Shown here: piece after piece, positions 45,786-57,597 of the stretch
How positions within the stretch are numbered: the first letter of the stretch is position 1
Layout: the number at the start of each line of letters is the position of its first letter
Translations under genes and position numbers: made by a program
Source: Bryobacteraceae bacterium
GTDB lineage: Bacteria > Acidobacteriota > Terriglobia > Bryobacterales > Bryobacteraceae
Length of the DNA: 64,000 nt
Assembly: GCA_026002855.1 (NCBI GenBank)
Contig: BPGD01000001.1
Coordinates: 2,922,001 to 2,986,000 of the forward strand
Reading direction: 5' to 3'
Notes under the pieces: model-generated
Told to the model about the DNA's origin: nothing
The model's input: only the letters and a program-made list of their open reading frames with translations
Databases searched by the model: none

Positions 45786-46851
45786 CCGCTTCTTCGGCAA
45801 CCGCATCGTCGCCGAATCGCTCGAGCACATGATCGAGACCGGCCGCATCGCCCAGACCATCCTGCTGGCCGGTCCCGAAGGCGTCGGCAAGGCCACGCTG
45901 GCACGCCGCTTCGCCGCCCGCCTGCTCGCCCTCGGCGCGCCCGGGGCGGCCGAAGAAATCCGCCGGCAAATCGAGCAGGATGACCTGAGCCTTCCCGAAA
46001 ACCGGAAAATCCTCGAAGAACGCGAAAAATGGCCGGGGGAAAAACGCGCCGAAGATCCGCTGTTTTTCGCCTCTTATCCCGATTTCGTCACCTTTTGCCC
46101 CGAAGGCCCGCTCCGCCAGATCTCTATCCAGCAGATGCGGCTGGCCCGCTCGCGCGCCCAGCTCCGGCCCCTCCGGGGCGGCTGGCGCGTCTTCCTGATC
46201 GACCGCATGGATCGCGCTGGCGCCCAGGCCGCCGACGCCCTTCTGAAAACCCTCGAAGAGCCGCCGCCGCACCTCGTGCTCTTCCTCACCGCCGAAAACC
46301 CCTATGAGCTGCCCGCCACCATCCGCTCCCGGTCGGTCGTCTTCTGGATGACGCCGCTCAGCGACGCCGAAATGGAGGCGGCCGCACGCGCCCTCGGCTG
46401 GAAAGACGCCGCGCGCCGCATCGCGCTTGCCGGCGGCTGCCCCGGCGTCGCCGCCACCATGGACCTCGCCCTTTACGAAAAGCGCCGCGCGGCGGCCCTG
46501 GCGATGCTCGAGTCCGCCTCGGGCGCGGCCTGCTTCGCCGACTGGGTGAAGAAAAGCCAGCCGCTGCTCGCCAGCAAGAACGAGAAACTCAGCGAGCACC
46601 TCAAGCCGCTCTACGCGCTCATCGAGGACCTGCTCGTGCTCAAAAGCGGCGGCTCGCGGATCCGCAACCAGGACCTTCGCCCGGCGCTCGAACAGCTCGC
46701 CGCGCGCGTCGGCTTCCCCTGGCTGTGCGAGGCCGTCGCCCTGGCCGACGCCTGGGACGGCCTCGAACGGCGCAACGTGCAGAAGGCCGCCGCCGCCGAT
46801 CAGTTCGTCGTCAGACTGGCCGGGCTCGCCAACGCCGCCCGCTGGAGCTGA
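45778..46851 (+). CDS. holB: DNA polymerase III delta' subunit (clamp-loader)
   Basis: 357 residues. The AAA+ part begins FDRFFGNRIVAESLEHMI, has a P-loop-like LAGPEGVGKATLARRFA, then FLIDRMDRAGAQAADALLKTLEEPPPH, FLTAENPYELPATIRSRS, the usual delta' order. The zinc cysteine cluster present in many DnaX and delta' proteins is absent; the corresponding region is charged (residues 60-110). The C-terminal helical domain is divergent but continuous. It follows tmk, which supports delta' over DnaX. Its last 52 bp overlap the convergent CheW-like gene. Confidence 0.85.
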   Translation: MFDRFFGNRIVAESLEHMIETGRIAQTILLAGPEGVGKATLARRFAARLLALGAPGAAEEIRRQIEQDDLSLPENRKILEEREKWPGEKRAEDPLFFASYPDFVTFCPEGPLRQISIQQMRLARSRAQLRPLRGGWRVFLIDRMDRAGAQAADALLKTLEEPPPHLVLFLTAENPYELPATIRSRSVVFWMTPLSDAEMEAAARALGWKDAARRIALAGGCPGVAATMDLALYEKRRAAALAMLESASGAACFADWVKKSQPLLASKNEKLSEHLKPLYALIEDLLVLKSGGSRIRNQDLRPALEQLAARVGFPWLCEAVALADAWDGLERRNVQKAAAADQFVVRLAGLANAARWS

Positions 46852-47270
46852 TCGAGATCCAGCACCTCGCGCCAGCCGTCTCCCAGCCGGATACGGCCCG
46901 GCGCGCGATAGAAGGCCGCCGGCACGTCCTCGATCCGCGAGATCGAATCCACCGCCAGCGCAAAGGCCGCCTCCGCCGGCGGCCCGCCATGCCGCGCCCC
47001 GTCCCGGACCAGCACGAGACACGACCGCGCCGAGGCCGGCCGCGCCTTCAGCCCCAGCAGTCCGTGCGGCCGCAGAACCGGAATCGTGCGGCCCTCCATC
47101 CGCAGCCGCTCTCCGCCAGGCTCGCCCGGCGGCGCCCCCTCCAGATCAGCCGTCCGCACCAGCATCATCCCGCAGACCCGCGCCGCCGGCACGCCGTAGT
47201 CGCGGCCCCCGAGCCGCACCACCACAAACCGCAGCGGCGGCGCCGACAGCATCGCCCGAGCCGCTCCCAT
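46800..47270 (-). CDS. CheW-like scaffold domain protein
   Basis: About 156 residues, one CheW domain: LRFVVVRLGGRDYGVPAARVCGMM at the start, GRTIPVLRPHGLLGL in the middle, and FALAVDSISRIEDVPAA near the end. CheW proteins couple receptors to the CheA kinase. Here it is the last gene after CheY-like and CheX-like genes, without CheA or a receptor. I chose ATG 47270, behind GAGTGAGG; TTG 47285 overlapping the CheX-like stop is possible. Confidence 0.8.
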   Translation of the reverse strand: MGAARAMLSAPPLRFVVVRLGGRDYGVPAARVCGMMLVRTADLEGAPPGEPGGERLRMEGRTIPVLRPHGLLGLKARPASARSCLVLVRDGARHGGPPAEAAFALAVDSISRIEDVPAAFYRAPGRIRLGDGWREVLDLDQLQRAALASPASLTTN

Positions 47271-47277
47271 CGCCGCC

Positions 47278-47811
47278 TCACTCAATCGACAGCACTGCCG
47301 TCACCTGCTCCCGCGCCGCACGGCCATGCGCCGCCGCATCCCGGCTCGGCGCCAGACACAGATGCACCTCGATCACCTCGCCATCCACGTGGAACGGCAC
47401 CACCGTCCACTTGCTCCGCGCCACGCTCCGCGTCGTGAAATTGCGCCCGTAGACGACCGTCGGAATCGACAGCCCCATCGGGCCCAGCTCCTCCTCCAGC
47501 GACGTCTTCACGTTGCCCAGCACCATGTTGGTGATCTCGCCCACCGCGTCGAGGACCTCCTCGTTGATCGCCTCATAGGGCTGCATCAACAACTGCGACG
47601 CCAGCCGCATCGCCATCGCCGCCGTGCAGGAAAACGTGCCCGACCCCGCCCACCGGCCCGCCAGCCCGATCAGCGCAATCACGCCCTCCGACGGGCCCGG
47701 CGCCGAATCATCCACATACGGCTCGCCGTCGGCCAACTCCATGCCCAACATCGTCGTGAACACGTCGCGCGTCGCCTGCCGGATCAGCGCGACCAGCTTC
47801 TCATGCGTCAC
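47278..47811 (-). CDS. CheX/CheC-type chemotaxis phosphatase-like protein
   Basis: About 177 residues. CheX proteins dephosphorylate CheY-P. The family motif ExxN is present in VLDAVGEITNMVLGNVKTSLE. The upstream GVIALIGLAGRWAGSGTFSC and the later PTVVYGRNF fit the same fold. Only one ExxN copy is visible, as in CheX. I start at GTG 47811, eight bases after AAGGAGG; GTG 47835 is in frame upstream. It lies between a CheY-like and a CheW-like gene, its likely partners. Confidence 0.85.
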   Translation of the reverse strand: MTHEKLVALIRQATRDVFTTMLGMELADGEPYVDDSAPGPSEGVIALIGLAGRWAGSGTFSCTAAMAMRLASQLLMQPYEAINEEVLDAVGEITNMVLGNVKTSLEEELGPMGLSIPTVVYGRNFTTRSVARSKWTVVPFHVDGEVIEVHLCLAPSRDAAAHGRAAREQVTAVLSIE

Positions 47812-47843
47812 TTCCTCGTCCTCCTTCGCCCGCACGCCGCGGC

Positions 47844-48215
47844 TCAGAACAGCCCGGCCAGCTTCTCCTTGATCTGCTCGGCGGTGAACGGCTTGCGCAC
47901 ATAGCCCGAAGCGCCCAGATTCACCGCCTCCATCACGCGCGAGCTCGACCCTTCCGTCGTCACCATGATCACCGGCACATCGCGCGTCGCCTCCTGCGCC
48001 TTCAGCGCCCCGAGCAGCGCCAGCCCGTCCATGTTCGGCATGTTGATGTCAGACAGGATCAAGCCCACCTTGTGCGTCTTGAGCTTTTCGAGCGCCTCCA
48101 CTCCGTCGCCGGCCTCAATCACCTTGCCCAGCGGCACGTCGGCCTGCACCAGCACCCGGTGCAGGATCTTGCGGATGGCGGCCGAATCGTCGACGATCAT
48201 CACGTCCACAGGCAT
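47844..48215 (-). CDS. CheY-like single-domain response regulator
   Basis: 123-residue receiver domain with no output domain. The acidic pocket is VMIVDDSAAIRKIL, the phospho-acceptor Asp is in GLILSDINMPNMDGLALL, the switch Thr in VIMVTTEG and the Lys in YVRKPFTAEQIKEKL. It heads a three-gene minus-strand set with CheX-like and CheW-like genes. No kinase is nearby, so a remote CheA or hybrid kinase must supply phosphate. Confidence 0.93.
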   Translation of the reverse strand: MPVDVMIVDDSAAIRKILHRVLVQADVPLGKVIEAGDGVEALEKLKTHKVGLILSDINMPNMDGLALLGALKAQEATRDVPVIMVTTEGSSSRVMEAVNLGASGYVRKPFTAEQIKEKLAGLF

Positions 48216-49094: not shown

Positions 49095-49383
49095 AGCGCC
49101 GCGTCCGCGCGGCGTCCTCAGCCCAGCGGCCGACCGGCTCAGGCCTGTTTCGAGTGGGGGGCGATACGACCCCGTTCGGGGCTGGGCGCCACGGCGTCGA
49201 CCGTGTCGGTAAGCTCGACACCTGCCGGGCCATTCATGCCCGAATTGGCGGGCGCGGCGCGCAAATTCCGCGCCTCGGGATGGGAGACTTCGCGCAGGGG
49301 TGCTGAACATCACCCACACGGATCCGGTTTTCCAGTTTCGCCGCGCCGCAAACTAAGCTTATAAGTCATTGATATTAATGTGC
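49095..49383. other. Intergenic region upstream of the electron-conduit promoter
   Basis: No supportable gene. The first 200 bp is GC-rich without obvious dyads. The last 35 bp (49350-49383) becomes AT-rich (AAGCTTATAAGTCATTGATA) and could act as an UP element for the promoter that follows. Confidence 0.4.
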
Positions 49384-49412
49384 TTGACTCCGGCGACAGA
49401 ATGCGATAGGTT
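49384..49412 (+). promoter_or_regulatory. Sigma-70-like promoter of the decaheme operon
   Basis: TTGACT (49384-49389) and TAGGTT (49407-49412) are separated by 17 bp, a good -35 and a weaker -10 box. The region immediately upstream is AT-rich. Transcription would begin near 49419, giving a leader of about 95 bases before the MtrC-like ATG. No regulator site is identified. Confidence 0.5.
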
Positions 49413-49414
49413 TG

Positions 49415-49479
49415 GCTTGGTTCATGCAAAGGAGCTTCTGAGCCGTTTGTCGGTTCAGAGGCTTAGGTGTAGCCCAAGC
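49415..49479 (+). promoter_or_regulatory. Structured 5' leader of the decaheme cytochrome mRNA
   Basis: Two nested helices can form. The outer stem is GCTTGG (49415-49420) with CCAAGC (49474-49479). The inner stem has 13 bp with two G-T pairs (49433-49445 with 49451-49463, loop TTTGT). Between them are the single-stranded segments TTCATGCAAAGG and TAGGTGTAG. I compared it by eye with cyclic-di-GMP (GEMM) and other riboswitches and found no match I trust. It could be an unclassified riboregulator or a stabilising 5' hairpin. Confidence 0.5.
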
Positions 49480-49515
49480 ATCGAGTTCATGTTCGCTCGC
49501 AGAAGGGAGTGCACT

Positions 49516-51648
49516 ATGCGTTCAAGGAGACGCTCTGGCGGTTGGATGAAATGGACGCTGGCGGCGCTGTTGTTGATTACTTCAACAGTGTTGGTCAGTT
49601 CGACACAATCCCCGTTCACGCAGCGGGACAAGGCTTTCTATGCCGACGAAGCGACGATCAACTTCGTGCGGCCCGGTCTCGTATTCAAGATCCTCGGTCA
49701 TGAGATTGCCGCAGACGGCACGGTGAAGGTCCGCTTCCGGATCACGGATCCGAAGGGTGTGCCGCTCGAGCGGGAGGGTATCAACACGCCTGGTCCGGTT
49801 TCCACCAGCTTCATTCTGGCCTACCTGCCCAACGACGGGAACCACTGGCGGACCTACACGACCCGGCTGAAGACCAGCACCTGGCCTCCGACGGCCGGCA
49901 AGCAGGCGCGGCAATCGTCGGCCGACTCTGGCGGTTCGTACCAGAAGGTTGCCGATGGCGAGTACATTTACACCTTCGGCACCAAGCTGCCGGCCAACTA
50001 TGACAAGACGGCGACGCATGCGATTTCGCTCTATGGCAACCGCAACCTGAGCGAATTCGAGCTTGGCGTCAACTATGCCACGGACAACTACTACTTCGTG
50101 CCGGATGGCTCGGCCGTGAAACGGGTGCGGCAGGTGATCACCACCGAGTCCTGCAACAAGTGTCATGAGGACCTGCGCTTCCACGGCGGCTCGCGCAAGG
50201 GAATGGATAACTGCATCCTGTGCCACTCTCCTGCCTACACGATCGGCAACACGACGGTGCAGAACATCAACCCCGAGACGGGCAACACGATCGACATGAC
50301 GGTGATGATCCACAAGATCCACATGGGCGCCAACCTGCCGAGCGTGCGTGCGGGCCAGCCCTACCGGATCGTGGGCTTTGGCAACAACGTGGCCGATTAT
50401 TCGAAAATCGGCATGCCCTCCGGCGCCAACAACTGCCAGTGGTGCCACGTGGAGAAGAACGACAAGGCGGCGCAGAAGGACGCCTGGCTTTCCAATCCGA
50501 CGCGGGCGGCCTGCGGAAGCTGCCATGACAACGTGAACTTTGCCACCGGCGAAAACCACCTGGGCATCATCCAGGTCTCCGACAACCAGTGCAAGAACTG
50601 CCACATTCCGCAGGGCGAGCTGGATTTCGACGCTTCGATCCTGGGCGCGCACATTACGGAGCAGAACTCGTCGCTGGTGCGCGGCGCGGTGGCGAAGATC
50701 GAACGGATTGAAAACGCCCAGCCCGGCAAGAAGCCGGTGATCACGTTCTCGCTGAAGGACCGGGCTGGCAATCCGATGGCGATCAGCGACCTGATTCCTG
50801 GGGCGGGCCGCGGCCGGCTGGCATTCACGCTGGCGCCGCTCGACGTCGACTACGGGCTGAATTTCGGCACGGCCACGACAAAGGGCTACGTCAACGAGAC
50901 CGTGACCGTGACGAGCGTCACCGGCACCCCGGGCCTTTATACCTACACGATGAACACGGCCATTCCGGCTGACGCCAAAGGCACGTGGACGATCGCGCTC
51001 GAGGGACGCACGGACGAGAAAGTCCTGGAAGGCACGCTGAAGGAGCGCGTCATCGAGGTCAACATCCCCAACGATGTCAAGTACGTCTCCGTGGACGGCA
51101 GCCCGGTGCAGGCGCGGCGCGTGGTGACGACGACGGCCACCTGCAACCAGTGCCATGCGCGGCTCAGCTTCCACGGCGAGAACCGCAACGAGATCGACAA
51201 CTGCGTCATCTGCCACAACCCGTCAATGACAGACGCGGCACGCCGTCCGGCCGCGCAGGCGCCGCCGGAGTCGATCAACATGGCGACGATGATCCACCGG
51301 ATCCACACCGGCGAGGAGCAGCCGCGGGACTACACCATCTACGGCTTCGGCAACGTGCCGCACAACTACAACCACGTCCTGCTGCCGCCGCCGGCCACGG
51401 GCGCAAGCTGCACGCTCTGCCACGTGAACAACAGCCAGCAGGCGCCGTCGAAGGGCGTGCTCGCGGTGACCGATCCTCGCGGCTGGCTGAACCCGGTGCA
51501 GCCGACCGCGGCGGCCTGTCTGGGGTGCCACGCCAGCCGGGAGGCGGCTTCTCATGCGCTGGCGCACACGACGACGCTCGGCGAGAGCTGCGGCGTCTGC
51601 CACGGGCCGAACGCCACGTATAGCGTGAACAAGGTCCACGCGCAGTAA
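49516..51648 (+). CDS. OmcA/MtrC-family decaheme c-type cytochrome (outer-surface electron-transfer protein)
   Basis: 710 residues with exactly ten CxxCH motifs at about 213, 233, 307, 333, 359 and 543, 563, 632, 668, 692. The two pentaheme halves are related: CNKCHEDLRFHGG and CNQCHARLSFHGE, each followed 20 residues later by a second heme, then MIHKIHMG/MIHRIHTG and GFGNN/GFGNV. Beta-rich domains precede each half, as in MtrC and OmcA. The signal is KWTLAALLLITSTVLVSS; unlike Shewanella MtrC no lipobox Cys is seen, so surface anchoring must differ. ATG 49516 follows AAGGGAG. It heads a conduit operon with MtrA- and MtrB-type genes. Confidence 0.93.
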   Translation: MRSRRRSGGWMKWTLAALLLITSTVLVSSTQSPFTQRDKAFYADEATINFVRPGLVFKILGHEIAADGTVKVRFRITDPKGVPLEREGINTPGPVSTSFILAYLPNDGNHWRTYTTRLKTSTWPPTAGKQARQSSADSGGSYQKVADGEYIYTFGTKLPANYDKTATHAISLYGNRNLSEFELGVNYATDNYYFVPDGSAVKRVRQVITTESCNKCHEDLRFHGGSRKGMDNCILCHSPAYTIGNTTVQNINPETGNTIDMTVMIHKIHMGANLPSVRAGQPYRIVGFGNNVADYSKIGMPSGANNCQWCHVEKNDKAAQKDAWLSNPTRAACGSCHDNVNFATGENHLGIIQVSDNQCKNCHIPQGELDFDASILGAHITEQNSSLVRGAVAKIERIENAQPGKKPVITFSLKDRAGNPMAISDLIPGAGRGRLAFTLAPLDVDYGLNFGTATTKGYVNETVTVTSVTGTPGLYTYTMNTAIPADAKGTWTIALEGRTDEKVLEGTLKERVIEVNIPNDVKYVSVDGSPVQARRVVTTTATCNQCHARLSFHGENRNEIDNCVICHNPSMTDAARRPAAQAPPESINMATMIHRIHTGEEQPRDYTIYGFGNVPHNYNHVLLPPPATGASCTLCHVNNSQQAPSKGVLAVTDPRGWLNPVQPTAAACLGCHASREAASHALAHTTTLGESCGVCHGPNATYSVNKVHAQ

Positions 51649-51671
51649 GAAGACTGCCCGGCTGATTCAGA

Positions 51672-51701
51672 CGGGGCGGGCCCGCTGAAGGGCCCGCCCC
51701 G
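51672..51701 (+). promoter_or_regulatory. Strong intercistronic hairpin between the two decaheme genes
   Basis: A perfect 12-bp GC-only stem (51672-51683 with 51690-51701) closes a GCTGAA loop, 24 bp after the MtrC-like stop and just before the next ribosome site (AGGGGAG). No U-tract follows, so it is probably not a full terminator; it may stabilise the upstream mRNA end or lower read-through to adjust protein ratios. Confidence 0.6.
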
Positions 51702-51722
51702 GTTCCGCACAGGGGAGCAATC

Positions 51723-52685
51723 ATGAAGATCCGTTACCTGCCGCTGATTGCCGCCTTCGCGTGGGCGGCGTGGCCGGCGGCTGCGCGTCAAGGCCAGGAG
51801 CCGGCAAAGAAAGAACAGGCCCCGGCGGCGGCCGCCACCCAGGCCAAGAAGGAGTACGTGGGGTCGGACACCTGCGCGGGGTGTCACGACGAAATCCGCA
51901 CGAACTTCAAGAAGAACGCGCACATCATTCTGGAAACGACCAGGAGCCGGGGTTGGGAGGGCAAGGCCTGCGAAAGTTGCCACGGGCCGGGCTCGGTTCA
52001 CGCGGAATCGACGTCGCCGGACGACATTCTCAGCCCGAAGAAGATGACGCCGGCGGCGATCGACCAGATGTGCCTGGCCTGCCACAAGAACCAGCAGACG
52101 CAGGCCGGCCGCGTTCAGAGCGGCCATGCGCGCAACAGCGTGCCCTGCACCGCGTGCCACAACGTCCACAAGGCGGGCGAAGAGGCCAGCGCCCGGCAGT
52201 TCCGCCGCCCGGCAGGTATCAACCGGAACTGCCAGGGCTGCCATATGGACGTCTGGGCCAGTTTCCAGAAGCCGCACCGGCACCCGCTGCCGGAAGGGGC
52301 GATGTCCTGCACGAGCTGCCACAACCCACACGGCAGCTTCCTGAACCGCAACCTGCGACTCGCCAGCGGGCAGCAGCCGGGCTGCTTCCAGTGCCACTCG
52401 GACAAGCGCGGGCCGTTCGTCTTCGAGCATGCGCCCGTGCGCAACGAGCCCTGCACGATCTGCCATGAGGCGCACGGTTCGGCCAATCCACGCATGATGA
52501 CGCGGCATGAGGTGACCAACCTGTGCCTCGAATGCCACTCCAACATCATGTCGCCGCCGCAGGCCACCACGGCGGGCGGCGTTGCCATCGCGACACACGA
52601 TTTGCGGCTGCCGCGCTGGCGCAACTGCACCGCGTGTCACCAGAAGGTGCACGGATCGAACGTGAATGGAGCCTTGTTGCGATGA
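51723..52685 (+). CDS. DmsE/MtrA-family periplasmic decaheme c-type cytochrome
   Basis: 320 residues with a Sec signal (KIRYLPLIAAFAWAAWPAAA) and ten CxxCH motifs between about residues 51 and 306 (first CAGCH, last CTACH). The spacing, with SCHGPGSVH, CTACHNVHKAGE, CTSCHNPHG and CTICHEAHGS, is that of the MtrA/PioA/DmsE group, which forms the heme wire inside the porin. A Lys/Ala/Gln-rich segment follows the signal. Its stop overlaps the porin gene start (ATGA), matching a stoichiometric MtrA-MtrB unit. It would accept electrons in the periplasm and pass them to the outer decaheme. Confidence 0.95.
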   Translation: MKIRYLPLIAAFAWAAWPAAARQGQEPAKKEQAPAAAATQAKKEYVGSDTCAGCHDEIRTNFKKNAHIILETTRSRGWEGKACESCHGPGSVHAESTSPDDILSPKKMTPAAIDQMCLACHKNQQTQAGRVQSGHARNSVPCTACHNVHKAGEEASARQFRRPAGINRNCQGCHMDVWASFQKPHRHPLPEGAMSCTSCHNPHGSFLNRNLRLASGQQPGCFQCHSDKRGPFVFEHAPVRNEPCTICHEAHGSANPRMMTRHEVTNLCLECHSNIMSPPQATTAGGVAIATHDLRLPRWRNCTACHQKVHGSNVNGALLR

Positions 52686-54826
52686 GATTCCTGCTGGCGA
52701 TCGCCCTTCCGCTCGCGCTTCTGGCGGAGGGCGCGCCCATCCAGAAGGAAGCGCACCGGCACACGGCCGCCATCACGGCGAAGAAGAAGCTGCGGAAGAT
52801 CCGGTCGGCGAAGACGCTCGCTTCGGCGCCGGCGGCGGCACGGGCGCAGGAGAGCGCCCCGGCGGCGGCTGCCGACGTCACGGAGACGCAGGCGTCCGCC
52901 CAGGCCGCAGGTCCGCAGGAGAAAAAGTGGGAGGTCAATCCGGAACCGACCGGCACTGAAAGCGTCTTTGGCGGACACATTGACATCGGCGCCCGCTGGA
53001 TCACGCGCGCCGGCGACTTCAACACCTACCGCAGCCTGGTGAACCTCAGCCAGGGCACGCGGCTGACCAACGCCGAGCTGCGGCTCGAGCCAAAGGGGTC
53101 GAAGCTGCTCGACAGCGGCCTGCTGACGATGACCGCCTGGGGCGGCGATCCGTACAACACGGCGCGGCTCGACGTGGTGAAGCGCGGCCTGTATCGGCTC
53201 ACGAGCACCTACTCCAACATCGCCATGTTCAACGCGCTGCCGTCGTTTGCCAACATCGGCGTGCCTGGCTCGCCGCTGTTTTTCAACCAGCGGACGATGG
53301 ACACGCGCATCCGCAACTATGAGAACGAGCTGACGCTCTTTCCCGGCAAGCGGGTGATGCCCTACATCGCTTACGGCCGCAACACGAGCTACGGTACGGG
53401 AATCACGCCGCTGGTGCAGCCGCCGAATGAGTATCCGCTGCGCAACGTGATCGACTGGCGGCTGTATGAAGTGCGCGGCGGCATCCGGGTGGAACTCGAC
53501 CGTTTCCACGCCACCGTCGAACAGGGCGGCCGGCGGTTCCACGACGGGCAATCGGTGTACTCCACCGAGACGCTGGCCGGCAACCGCTCCACGCCGTACC
53601 TGGGGCAGATCCTGTCGCTCACCCAGGGCAGCCAGCTCTACCGCGTGCGCGGCGAGGCCGAGCACACGCGAGCGCTGGTGACGACGTCGCCCTTCCACTG
53701 GCTGGATCTGTCGGGCAGCTTCATCCGCAGCCGCCCGAAGACGTACTCGGAGTTGAACCAGCTCGTGCGGGGGAAAGTCGTGGATCCCAACGACCCGCTG
53801 CTTGTGTTGCTCGGGACCACCGACTATTTCTTCGGCAACGCCACCATGCCGCACATCTCCGGCAGCGCGGCGGCCGAAGCCAGGCTGGGCTCGCGGATCC
53901 GCATCCGCGAGAGCTGGGAGACGGACCGCTTCCACACGACCGGAATCAACACGCTGCGCTCGCTGCAACTGCTTTCGCCCACGGCCACGGCGGCGCTGAC
54001 CCTCACCGATGGCGAGCGGCTGGAGGTGAACCGGCACCGTCAGCAGATCGAGGCCATCTGGGACGTGAGCAAGCAACTCACGATCCGCGGCGGGCACCGC
54101 TATGAGTGGGGCCGTTCGCTGATGAAGGCCAGCACGTACTCGCAGGGCGCGCCTTACGACCGTCTTGAGATGGAGCGGCAGGGTGGCGTGTTCGGGTTCG
54201 TGCTGCGGCCGTTGCAGCGCGTGTCGCTCAACGGCGACATGGAATTCATCGACGGCATCAAGACCTATTACCGGACCGGTCTCTACGATCACACCCGGCT
54301 GCGGTTCCAGACCCGGTTCCAGTTGCCGAAGAACCTGTTCTTCAACGCCAACTACAACCGGTTGACCAACGAAAACCCGAACCCCGACGTCCGCTACTGG
54401 TATGAGGCCGAGGCGATCTCGGGCAGTCTCCAGTGGCTGCCGGGCGCAGGCAAGAACGTCGCCATCATCGCTGAATATCAGCGGTCGAAGATTCGAAGCG
54501 ACATCAATTATCTGTACCCGCTGGGGCTGTTCCCGGTGGCGAGCAACTACCGCGACTACGCCCACACGGGCACGATGCTGATCGACCTGCGCCTGCCGCT
54601 GGGGCCGCGCTACAGCGGGCGGCTCTCGGCGGGCGGTTCCTTTGTGACCACGTCCGGGGTGAGGCCGACGGACTATTACCAGCCGCAGGGACGGCTGGTG
54701 CTGCCGGTGACCCAGAAGATGGAGTTCTTCTCCGAGTACCGCTATTTTGGCCTGAGTCAGACGATTTACGTCTTCGAGGGTTTCCGGACGCATATGTACA
54801 CGGGGGGCGTCCGGCTGCTGATGTAG
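52682..54826 (+). CDS. MtrB/PioB-family outer-membrane beta-barrel porin
   Basis: 714 residues. After a Sec signal (FLLAIALPLALLAEG) comes an unusual Lys/Ala/Thr-rich segment of about 70 residues, then the barrel from about GGHIDIGARWITRAGD onward, with alternating strands such as VRGGIRVELDRFHATVEQGG and SGSLQWLPGAGKNVAIIAEYQ. It ends in FRTHMYTGGVRLLM. Length and strand pattern fit the 26-strand MtrB/PioB porins that sheathe the decaheme. I do not see the CxxC reported in gamma-proteobacterial MtrB. The start overlaps the decaheme stop; an intrinsic terminator follows the stop codon. Confidence 0.88.
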   Translation: MRFLLAIALPLALLAEGAPIQKEAHRHTAAITAKKKLRKIRSAKTLASAPAAARAQESAPAAAADVTETQASAQAAGPQEKKWEVNPEPTGTESVFGGHIDIGARWITRAGDFNTYRSLVNLSQGTRLTNAELRLEPKGSKLLDSGLLTMTAWGGDPYNTARLDVVKRGLYRLTSTYSNIAMFNALPSFANIGVPGSPLFFNQRTMDTRIRNYENELTLFPGKRVMPYIAYGRNTSYGTGITPLVQPPNEYPLRNVIDWRLYEVRGGIRVELDRFHATVEQGGRRFHDGQSVYSTETLAGNRSTPYLGQILSLTQGSQLYRVRGEAEHTRALVTTSPFHWLDLSGSFIRSRPKTYSELNQLVRGKVVDPNDPLLVLLGTTDYFFGNATMPHISGSAAAEARLGSRIRIRESWETDRFHTTGINTLRSLQLLSPTATAALTLTDGERLEVNRHRQQIEAIWDVSKQLTIRGGHRYEWGRSLMKASTYSQGAPYDRLEMERQGGVFGFVLRPLQRVSLNGDMEFIDGIKTYYRTGLYDHTRLRFQTRFQLPKNLFFNANYNRLTNENPNPDVRYWYEAEAISGSLQWLPGAGKNVAIIAEYQRSKIRSDINYLYPLGLFPVASNYRDYAHTGTMLIDLRLPLGPRYSGRLSAGGSFVTTSGVRPTDYYQPQGRLVLPVTQKMEFFSEYRYFGLSQTIYVFEGFRTHMYTGGVRLLM

Positions 54827-54863
54827 AGTCTGAGCGCATCCCTCCTCCCCCCTCCGCACTCCC

Positions 54864-54893
54864 GGGGCAGGCTCCGGCCTGCCCCTTGTTTTT
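54864..54893 (+). terminator. Intrinsic terminator of the porin-cytochrome operon
   Basis: A 9-bp GC-rich stem (54864-54872 with 54877-54885) with TCCG loop is followed by TTGTTTTT (54886-54893). It lies 37 bp after the porin stop codon and separates the conduit operon from the tetraheme gene. Confidence 0.88.
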
Positions 54894-54913
54894 CTCCGGC
54901 TCCCGCGTACATT
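54886..54913 (+). promoter_or_regulatory. Candidate promoter of the tetraheme cytochrome gene
   Basis: TTGTTT (54886-54891) and TACATT (54908-54913) with a 16-bp spacer, overlapping the terminator U-tract. A near-perfect AGGAGG (54920-54925) lies nine bases before the ATG. The boxes are weak; the case rests on the need for initiation after the terminator. Confidence 0.35.
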
Positions 54914-54934: not shown

Positions 54935-56008
54935 ATGTTCCGGTTGTTTCCGGTCCTGTTGTCCGCTGCCATGGTCTGCTCTGCCGCCGTCCCGCTGGGG
55001 GACTCGGCGCGGGGAGCGCAGGTGTTCCAGGAACAGAAGTGCGTTGTCTGCCATAGCGTGAACGGGAAAGGCGGCAAGTCGGCCCCGGATCTCGGCCAGA
55101 CCGTGGGCCGCGGCTACACGCCGGCCACGCTGGCGGCACAGATGTGGAACCATGCGCCGAAGATGTGGGAGTCGATCGAGCGCGCCAGCCTGAAGCCGCC
55201 GAAGCTGACCACCCAGCAGGCGGCCGATCTGTACGCCTACTTTTACTCGGCCCGTTTCTTCGAGAAGAAAGGGGACGCGGCGCGGGGCAAAAAGCTGTTT
55301 GCGGAGAAGGGCTGCGCCGGGTGTCATCAGAGCGCGGGCGGGGGCGCGCCCGACGTCAGCCAGTGGCCGGCCATCACTGACCCGATCGAACTGGCTCGCC
55401 AGATGTGGAACCATTCGCCGCAGATGAAGGGGGCGATCGAGGCGAAGAAGGCAGCGCTGCCGAAGATCACCGCCGACGAGATGAACGACATCACCGTGTA
55501 CCTTCAGAGCCTGCCGACGGCGTCGAAGGAAGCTCCAAAGTATGTGCCGGCCTCGGCGGCCACGGGCGAGGAGCTGTTCAGGGTGAAGGGGTGTGCGGGC
55601 TGCCATGCCGGTGCCAAGGGGCTGGGCAAGAGCGGTCCGAAGAGCAACGCGGAACTGGCCGCCGCGCTCTGGAACCATCCGGGCAAGGCGCCCCGCAACA
55701 GCGAGCTGAGGCCGGAGGAGATGACCCGTCTGCTCGGCTATGTGTGGTCGCTCCAGTTCGCCAACGAGGGCGGCAACGCCGCGGCCGGCGAGAAGGCGTT
55801 CGCGTCGAAAGGCTGCCGGAACTGCCACGGCTCCGGCGTGCCGAAGCTCGCTCATGGAGAAGGCGACAACAGCTTCGGCATGGTGGCCGTGCTCTGGAGT
55901 CACGGGCCGCAGATGCTGAGCCAGATGCGCGCGAAGGGCATGCAGTGGCCCGCCTTCGGCGGCAGCGATATCGTGGATCTGCTCGCCTACATGAAGTCGA
56001 AGAAGTGA
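54935..56008 (+). CDS. Exported tetraheme cytochrome c built of four mono-heme repeats
   Basis: 357 residues with a Sec signal (FRLFPVLLSAAMVCSAA). Four CxxCH motifs at about 36, 127, 220 and 294 each open a class-I-like cytochrome c unit of about 75-95 residues. Each unit has a repeated motif near its middle: MWNHAPKM, MWNHSPQM, LWNHPGKA and LWSHGPQM. The Met could be the second heme ligand in units 1, 2 and 4; unit 3 has Ala there. It has its own ribosome site after a terminator, so it is expressed separately from the conduit. It may shuttle electrons in the periplasm, an inference from position. Confidence 0.88.
   Translation: MFRLFPVLLSAAMVCSAAVPLGDSARGAQVFQEQKCVVCHSVNGKGGKSAPDLGQTVGRGYTPATLAAQMWNHAPKMWESIERASLKPPKLTTQQAADLYAYFYSARFFEKKGDAARGKKLFAEKGCAGCHQSAGGGAPDVSQWPAITDPIELARQMWNHSPQMKGAIEAKKAALPKITADEMNDITVYLQSLPTASKEAPKYVPASAATGEELFRVKGCAGCHAGAKGLGKSGPKSNAELAAALWNHPGKAPRNSELRPEEMTRLLGYVWSLQFANEGGNAAAGEKAFASKGCRNCHGSGVPKLAHGEGDNSFGMVAVLWSHGPQMLSQMRAKGMQWPAFGGSDIVDLLAYMKSKK

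Positions 56009-56455: not shown

Positions 56456-56459
<4 letters not shown>
56082..56459 (-). CDS. Protein of unknown function coupled to hpnH
   Basis: 125 residues, no signal or membrane segment. The middle is beta-rich ([20 protein letters not shown], then [25 protein letters not shown]), giving the look of a small Sm-like or RNA-binding beta fold; the C-terminus is a helix with [17 protein letters not shown] do not recognise the family. Its ATG overlaps the hpnH stop by four bases, so it should be made together with HpnH and may serve hopanoid synthesis. A 9-bp hairpin without U-tract (56026-56054) lies beyond its end. Confidence 0.72.
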
Positions 56460-57568
<1,109 letters not shown>

Positions 57569-57597
57569 AATGACTATGCGGGGAGGCGGCGCCAAAC

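Follow-up and report, generated by a model that had tools for sequence, protein, structure and literature searches.

A three-gene operon in the genome of a bacterium of the Bryobacteraceae, a family from soil and wetland, very likely encodes an electron conduit of the MtrCAB kind (Group 5 of Baker et al. 2022) that crosses the outer membrane and passes electrons outward. It lies at 49516-54826 of the window, a stretch of 64,000 nucleotides (assembly GCA_026002855.1, contig BPGD01000001.1, positions 2,922,001 to 2,986,000) in which an initial annotation, made from the letters alone, had described it. Three consecutive plus-strand genes in the order C-A-B encode an MtrC-like decaheme cytochrome, an MtrA-like decaheme cytochrome, and a porin (table 1). 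Judged by heme and membrane layout, the likely inner-membrane partner of the conduit is a pair of CbcL- and ImcH-like proteins encoded elsewhere in the genome, which is new relative to Baker et al. 2022.

Both decahemes fall in the families that the annotation had named for them. The MtrC-like protein scores 501.8 bits against the OmcA/MtrC profile TIGR03507 (cut-off 209.3; positions 2-672 of the 672 in the model) and, in the Protein Data Bank (PDB), is nearest to MtrF and OmcA (MtrF 3pmq at 4.9e-28). The MtrA-like protein scores 242.5 bits against the DmsE profile TIGR03508 (cut-off 192.2) and matches chain A of the Mtr complex (6r2q_A, which carries an unrelated molecule name in the PDB listing) at 7.4e-37 with all ten CxxCH motifs aligned. 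Open reading frames (ORFs) and motif counts bear out three consecutive genes and exactly ten CxxCH in each decaheme, and the evidence favors the core of the annotation, an acidobacterial porin-cytochrome conduit of the MtrCAB kind. Motifs in the MtrC-like protein form two groups of five (residues 213-359 and 543-692), beyond which it has no cysteine. There are 26 histidines in the MtrC-like and 22 in the MtrA-like protein, enough for a second histidine ligand on every heme of both. Across the whole window, the only open frames with at least two CxxCH are those of the two decahemes and the neighboring tetraheme, so chance is not an issue for the heme-gene cluster. The mtrC-like gene starts at ATG 49516, with GGGAG six bases 5' of it, and its frame is also open, at greater length, from a TTG start at 49369. 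The ATG of the porin gene at 52682 overlaps the mtrA stop, and the porin has no cysteine.

Profile and fold comparisons of the porin, annotated as MtrB/PioB-type, give different answers. Searches with Pfam and NCBIfam profiles found no match to PF11854 or TIGR03509, and by score the porin is no member of the MtrB family of these databases; a sequence search matched it to no solved structure. A failed profile search had been named in the annotation as a refutation, from which the fold comparison rescues the assignment. The predicted fold is nearest to that of MtrB. The AlphaFold model, for which the input included 16 relatives from Acidobacteriota contigs, is a barrel with a mean predicted local distance difference test score of 80.5 (residues 1-90 are unreliable) and 27 strand elements overall, a figure that is not a count of barrel-wall strands, of which 26 are expected in an MtrB. 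The top match in Foldseek is MtrB (6r2q_B; E 1.1e-13), which also leads in VIA-align 2 (Z 24.6, root-mean-square deviation 3.8, 562 residues, model 93-714), where the next barrel reaches Z 17.1. Profile-to-profile comparison with hhalign of 12 window-type porins and 10 acidobacterial PF11854 porins gives 97.8% (score 111, 1.1e-12), while reversed and column-shuffled decoys reach at most 8.1%. Two control sets of TonB receptors were also compared, taken as the longest open frame at each of 14 loci; some may be in the wrong frame. Window-type porins reach 24.0% (score 41) and 4.4% against them in local alignment and 0 in global alignment. PF11854 porins reach 70.6% and 1.1% in local and 90.2% and 0 in global alignment. 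Because these scores are high in two of four runs, hhalign alone is no safe separator of barrels, and the structural comparison is weightier. A porin outside the MtrB fold was rejected on the comparison of structures and, with less weight, on that of profiles. On its modeled fold, the porin very probably has the function of an MtrB, to which it is probably homologous.

Porins of the window type extend through the phylum. Relatives at E 1e-5 or better are present in 76 of 396 sampled genomes, the weakest of which need not be conduits; PF11854 matches are present in 90 and both types in 14, in which the listed places of the two differ. Each of the 29 relatives that were fetched (best places, one per genome, own locus excluded) is immediately preceded by a same-strand ORF with ten CxxCH. 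Porins of the family lie close to the limit of the MtrB model: PF11854 matches 6 of 16, that of the window included, at E 0.01 or better (best 1.3e-5), and TIGR03509 matches one of the 16; within alignment A1, four of 26 porins match PF11854. Screens with PF11854 or TIGR03509 overlook many conduits of this kind. One acidobacterial cluster (L031 550-9682, JACQTF010000139.1) encodes MtrC, MtrA, a window-type porin, a second MtrA, and then a PF11854-matching porin.

The available text of Baker et al. 2022 (PMC8805035) confines MtrCAB Group 5 to Acidobacteriia that are unclassified or Bryobacterales. It describes all members as having a predicted periplasmic tetraheme directly after mtrB, and reports neither mtrC duplicates nor, in the vicinity, any putative quinone oxidoreductase of the inner membrane. 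The window locus is alike in having mtrC-mtrA-mtrB in the same family, a tetraheme after mtrB, a single mtrC, and no quinone oxidoreductase near. By its gene content and lineage it is a member of this group, already published, and may be among the genomes used in that study; both this kind of system and its presence in this order are known. The tetraheme also fits the description in that text. Its repeats are of the Cytochrom_C kind, its gene lies after mtrB and behind a terminator-like site, and the protein is a probable periplasmic electron carrier. Earlier porin-cytochrome complexes from Holophaga, among them one whose porin is an MtrB homolog, were the first report in Acidobacteria by their authors' account (2020; PMC7399161, available text); they are likewise from Acidobacteriota but, compared by description, belong to another lineage of the phylum.

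Conservation of the locus was followed in 20 stretches from 17 genomes of the family, picked around MtrC matches. MtrC, MtrA, and porin are all present in 15, and are consecutive in the order C-A-B in 14. A tetraheme match (E <1e-6) follows mtrB in 10 of the 15 stretches holding all three and is missing in five, one of them in the genus of the window, as opposed to the "all" in the available text of PMC8805035. The operon, annotated as a self-contained unit, is therefore incomplete by itself, since the tetraheme follows mtrB and cbcL- and imcH-like genes lie elsewhere in the genome. Five stretches (L093, L095, L098, L100, and L103) have MtrC homologs (43-50% identical) that are unaccompanied there by any match to MtrA or porin; for L093, L095, and L100 the same genome also carries a complete operon, making the homolog a second copy. 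Two OmcA/MtrC genes lie close together in two other places in genomes of the family (G430:C49:251493-255912 and G732:C5:6150-10348).

The Group 5 study, in its available text, looked at the locus only, whereas the CbcL/ImcH-like pair was found elsewhere in the genome. A genome search for an inner-membrane quinol dehydrogenase, proposed in the annotation, turned up an ImcH-like protein beside a CbcL-like one. In this search with PF03264 (NapC/NirT), there was no CymA-like gene; an NrfH-like and the ImcH-like protein (32.6 bits, cut-off 24.1) were over the cut-off, and a tetraheme and a nine-heme protein were weaker matches. The ImcH-like protein, 471 amino acids in length, has hydropathy peaks at 19-37, 56-74, and 100-118, a CX3CH at 132, and five CX2CH. 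This is the ImcH layout of three N-terminal transmembrane segments (TM), an adjoining atypical CX3CH, and 5-9 CX2CH given in the available text of PMC6295460, which lists 19 ImcH in Acidobacteria; the protein is likened to ImcH by layout only, and Geobacter ImcH is 495-519 amino acids long. Directly upstream is the gene for a 551-amino acid protein, likened to CbcL also by layout only, with nine CX2CH and a cytochrome b561 domain; a simple hydropathy threshold picks out only four TM toward its C terminus. The same text gives CbcL/MtrH/MtoC an N-terminal region with 3-23 CX2CH and a b-type cytochrome membrane domain of mostly six TM. Thus far the pair resembles that of Geobacter as described there, but here the genes are adjacent and the outer conduit is of the MtrCAB type.

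Occurrence of CbcL follows that of mtrC in part. The cbcL- and imcH-like genes are adjacent in all four genomes inspected (G000, G513, G525, and G705). Full-length CbcL is present in 30 of 55 mtrC-bearing and none of 20 mtrC-lacking genomes of the family (Fisher p 6e-6, kinship ignored). The survey left out 15 of the 70 mtrC-bearing genomes, mostly fragmented, and its mtrC-lacking set is the 20 listed; four further genomes gave only partial or distant CbcL matches, one cut by a contig end. CbcL-family genes (mtrH/mtoC) are clustered with mtrAB/mtoAB, for example, in Rhodoferax ferrireducens, and mtrAB is not reported beside imcH in the available text of PMC6295460, which would leave just the ImcH half as the uncommon part of the combination. 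No description of cbcL-imcH together with mtrCAB in Bryobacteraceae was found in the searches made of open-access text.

In the mechanism that we propose, the CbcL- and/or ImcH-like proteins would draw electrons from menaquinol, and the tetraheme encoded after mtrB would carry them across the periplasm. The MtrA-like decaheme, held inside the MtrB-like barrel, would join the periplasm to the MtrC-like decaheme, which we infer to be at the surface. When oxygen is scarce, the latter would reduce Fe(III) minerals or other acceptors outside the cell. The cydAB genes are present in the window, confirming what had been annotated. Complex formation and the link to the pair and the tetraheme are predicted in this scheme, as are the acceptor and the outward direction; the latter is suggested because of the ImcH-like protein and the Fe(III)-reducing phenotype (PMC8407742) of Paludibaculum fermentans P105, a cultured strain placed in Bryobacteraceae. 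A genome that appears to be that of P105 (G705) has mtrCAB and the tetraheme gene at 54-68% identity and the CbcL/ImcH-like pair at 67-72%. The same conduit could run inward, as has been put forward for MtoAB and PioAB, with Fe(II) or some other outside donor supplying the electrons. The parts leave direction unfixed, as CymA and CbcL-family proteins are found in both Fe(III) reducers and Fe(II) oxidizers according to the available text of PMC6295460. Nevertheless, the same text has ImcH homologs implicated so far only in quinol oxidation, and the cultured relative reduces Fe(III) (PMC8407742), which makes the inward direction unlikely.

Less probable still is a role in supplying an extracellular reductase that acts on a soluble acceptor, as DmsEF serves DmsAB for dimethyl sulfoxide. 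The family in which the MtrA-like protein falls is named DmsE (TIGR03508), but we take that family to cover MtrA as well, the outer partner is an MtrC-family decaheme, and no reductase gene is directly beside the operon; its neighbors are instead an SDR gene on the 5' side, chemotaxis-type genes, the tetraheme gene, and a radical SAM gene. Least credible of all is a relic or minor electron sink with no part in respiration: occurrence is patchy (OmcA/MtrC matches at E 1e-20 or better in 74 of 399 genomes of the class, 70 of the 74 being in the family of the window, and at least 20 family genomes without one), but C, A, and B are intact in all four congeneric genomes, with proteins 81-89% identical, the promoter-like sequence is kept in all three readable congeners, and the hairpin is kept in all four.

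Besides the profile searches that the porin failed to match and the TonB scores of PF11854 porins, several observations weigh against an outward conduit of the MtrCAB kind. In Shewanella-type MtrC, a lipobox cysteine anchors the protein to the outer surface. The MtrC-like protein has no lipobox, leaving surface anchoring unexplained by its sequence, and among 27 MtrC sequences, that of the window included, the lipobox pattern has a single match (L094), positioned upstream of the plausible start. The CbcL/ImcH-like pair is unlinked to the operon, being at about 4.0337-4.0368 Mb where the operon is at about 2.971-2.977 Mb, ∼1.06 Mb apart. In 25 of the 55 mtrC-bearing genomes of the family there is no full-length CbcL match, so a conduit in use in those genomes must draw on a different quinol oxidase. 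Because a second MtrC gene is present in P. fermentans, the iron reduction of that strain is not assignable to this operon. Finally, the evidence for the conduit in this organism comes from sequence and predicted structure. We consider the outward conduit well favored and advance a fuller account only tentatively: a hybrid chain in which Geobacter-type CbcL and ImcH feed, via a class I-repeat carrier, a Shewanella-type MtrCAB with a divergent barrel and a nonlipidated MtrC, and which would explain Fe(III) reduction by P. fermentans.

Gene order and the missing adjacent CymA had been annotated as differences from Shewanella, and neither is one. The order in S. oneidensis is mtrC, mtrA, mtrB (PMC12133095, available text), and CymA is not encoded beside mtrCAB in Shewanella (PMC8805035, available text). 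Likenesses to the Shewanella MtrCAB of 6r2q are the C-A-B order, the same two decaheme families, an MtrB-like barrel fold, and an unlinked partner of the cymA type. Differences on the side of the window are a porin that scores under every MtrB profile searched and lacks cysteine, an MtrC without a lipobox, inner-membrane candidates that are CbcL/ImcH-like rather than CymA, and a cytochrome of four class I-like repeats after mtrB.

Upstream of mtrC, a palindrome, a block holding CTTATAA, a promoter-like sequence, and an element at 49412-49429 are common to the window and to all three readable congeners (a fourth stretch starts at the gene), whereas their flanks diverge. These elements are absent before the other 16 MtrC genes scanned, except for three -24/-12-like matches, and so appear to be specific to this operon within the genus. 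The promoter annotated at the front of the operon is a partial match to consensus and is unlisted in the 49384-49412 region by a consensus scan, but it is conserved among the congeners. The 49412-49429 element also fits a -24/-12 (sigma-54) layout, and the palindrome, with its GGTGA-N6-TCACC layout, may be akin to CRP/FNR-family sites. The palindrome has one exact match genome-wide, and chance predicts 0.01 occurrences in the window if up to two mismatches are allowed; at up to three mismatches, it has 48 places in the genome, compared to three for a backward control. A palindrome regulon was rejected, as the two sites with two mismatches, the only ones inspected, are both inside predicted coding genes. 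Nor was the palindrome found in the three cbcL loci searched. The hairpin between mtrC and mtrA recurs with changed sequence in all four congeners as well as in L099, there with T residues behind it; it may protect the mtrC 3' end or lower mtrAB expression. The terminator annotated at the end of the operon is plausible by its pattern, though the scan as a whole gave 5 sites versus 5.1 in shuffles. Rfam had nothing in the window at gathering score.

Genes around the operon and elsewhere in the genome add to this setting. CheW-, CheX-, and receiver-domain genes stand in a row at 46803-48215 on the minus strand, right ahead of the SDR gene, which itself lies 5' of the operon. Past the tetraheme gene, also on the minus strand, 56459-57595 encodes a radical SAM protein with DUF3463, a layout that we take to be that of the hopanoid gene hpnH. 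The NrfH-like gene from the PF03264 search is beside an NrfA-like gene (G000:C1 1056656-1058554; L049, L056), a pair with a possible role in nitrite reduction to ammonium. The weaker tetraheme match, of ∼160 amino acids, lies directly before NiFe-hydrogenase-like subunit genes (G000:C1 305203-308328; L051), a possible route from H2 to cytochromes, and the nine-heme cytochrome lies directly after a GMC-type oxidoreductase gene (G000:C1 3687736-3691062; L052); the hydrogenase-like and oxidoreductase genes were both named by eye. An alternative-complex-III-like cluster, named from its layout, is beside oxidase-like genes.

Table 1. Features of the mtrCAB-like operon, its flanks, and the candidate inner-membrane genes (window positions unless a contig is given).
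Feature	Position	Strand	Basis or remark
Palindrome GGGTGCTGAACATCACCC (also given as GGGTGNTGAACATCACCC), candidate regulator site upstream of mtrC	49298..49315		Kept in 3 of 3 readable congeners
Conserved block CTTATAAGTCATTGA between palindrome and promoter, holds CTTATAA	49358..49372	+	Alignment with 3 congeners; one base differs in one
Sigma-70-like promoter, TTGACT-N17-TAGGTT	49384..49412	+	8 of 12 to consensus; 3 congeners share both hexamers and their spacing, one of them with TAAGTT
Conserved element TTGGCTTGGTTCATGCAA (also TTGGCTTGGTTCNTGCAA), one-base overlap with promoter	49412..49429	+	Congener alignment
mtrC-like gene, OmcA/MtrC-family decaheme, 710 amino acids, 5+5 hemes, without lipobox	49516..51648	+	ORF; profile and structure-database searches
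12-pair hairpin in the mtrC-mtrA gap, no T tract	51672..51701	+	Gap fold z -3.67
mtrA-like gene, DmsE/MtrA-family decaheme, 320 amino acids	51723..52685	+	ORF; profile searches; alignment to 6r2q chain A
mtrB-like gene, outer-membrane beta-barrel, 714 amino acids, predicted fold nearest MtrB	52682..54826	+	Fold and profile comparison
Intrinsic-terminator-like site after mtrB	54864..54895	+	Hairpin 54864-54885, 9 pairs, 8 G-C, then TTGTTTTT
Tetraheme cytochrome gene, four mono-heme class I-like repeats, N-terminal hydrophobic stretch	54935..56008	+	Profile searches; CxxCH count; fit to the published Group 5 description
Adjacent cbcL-like and imcH-like genes, then Usp-type gene (L053)	G000:C1 about 4033666-4036782		Heme and membrane layout

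If the hybrid chain is true, Bryobacteraceae would have a hybrid extracellular respiration that is of the Geobacter type on the inside and of the Shewanella type on the outside. As a cultured Fe(III)-reducing relative seems to have all of these genes (mtrCAB, the tetraheme gene, and the CbcL/ImcH-like pair), experiments could address the inner part of the acidobacterial pathway directly.

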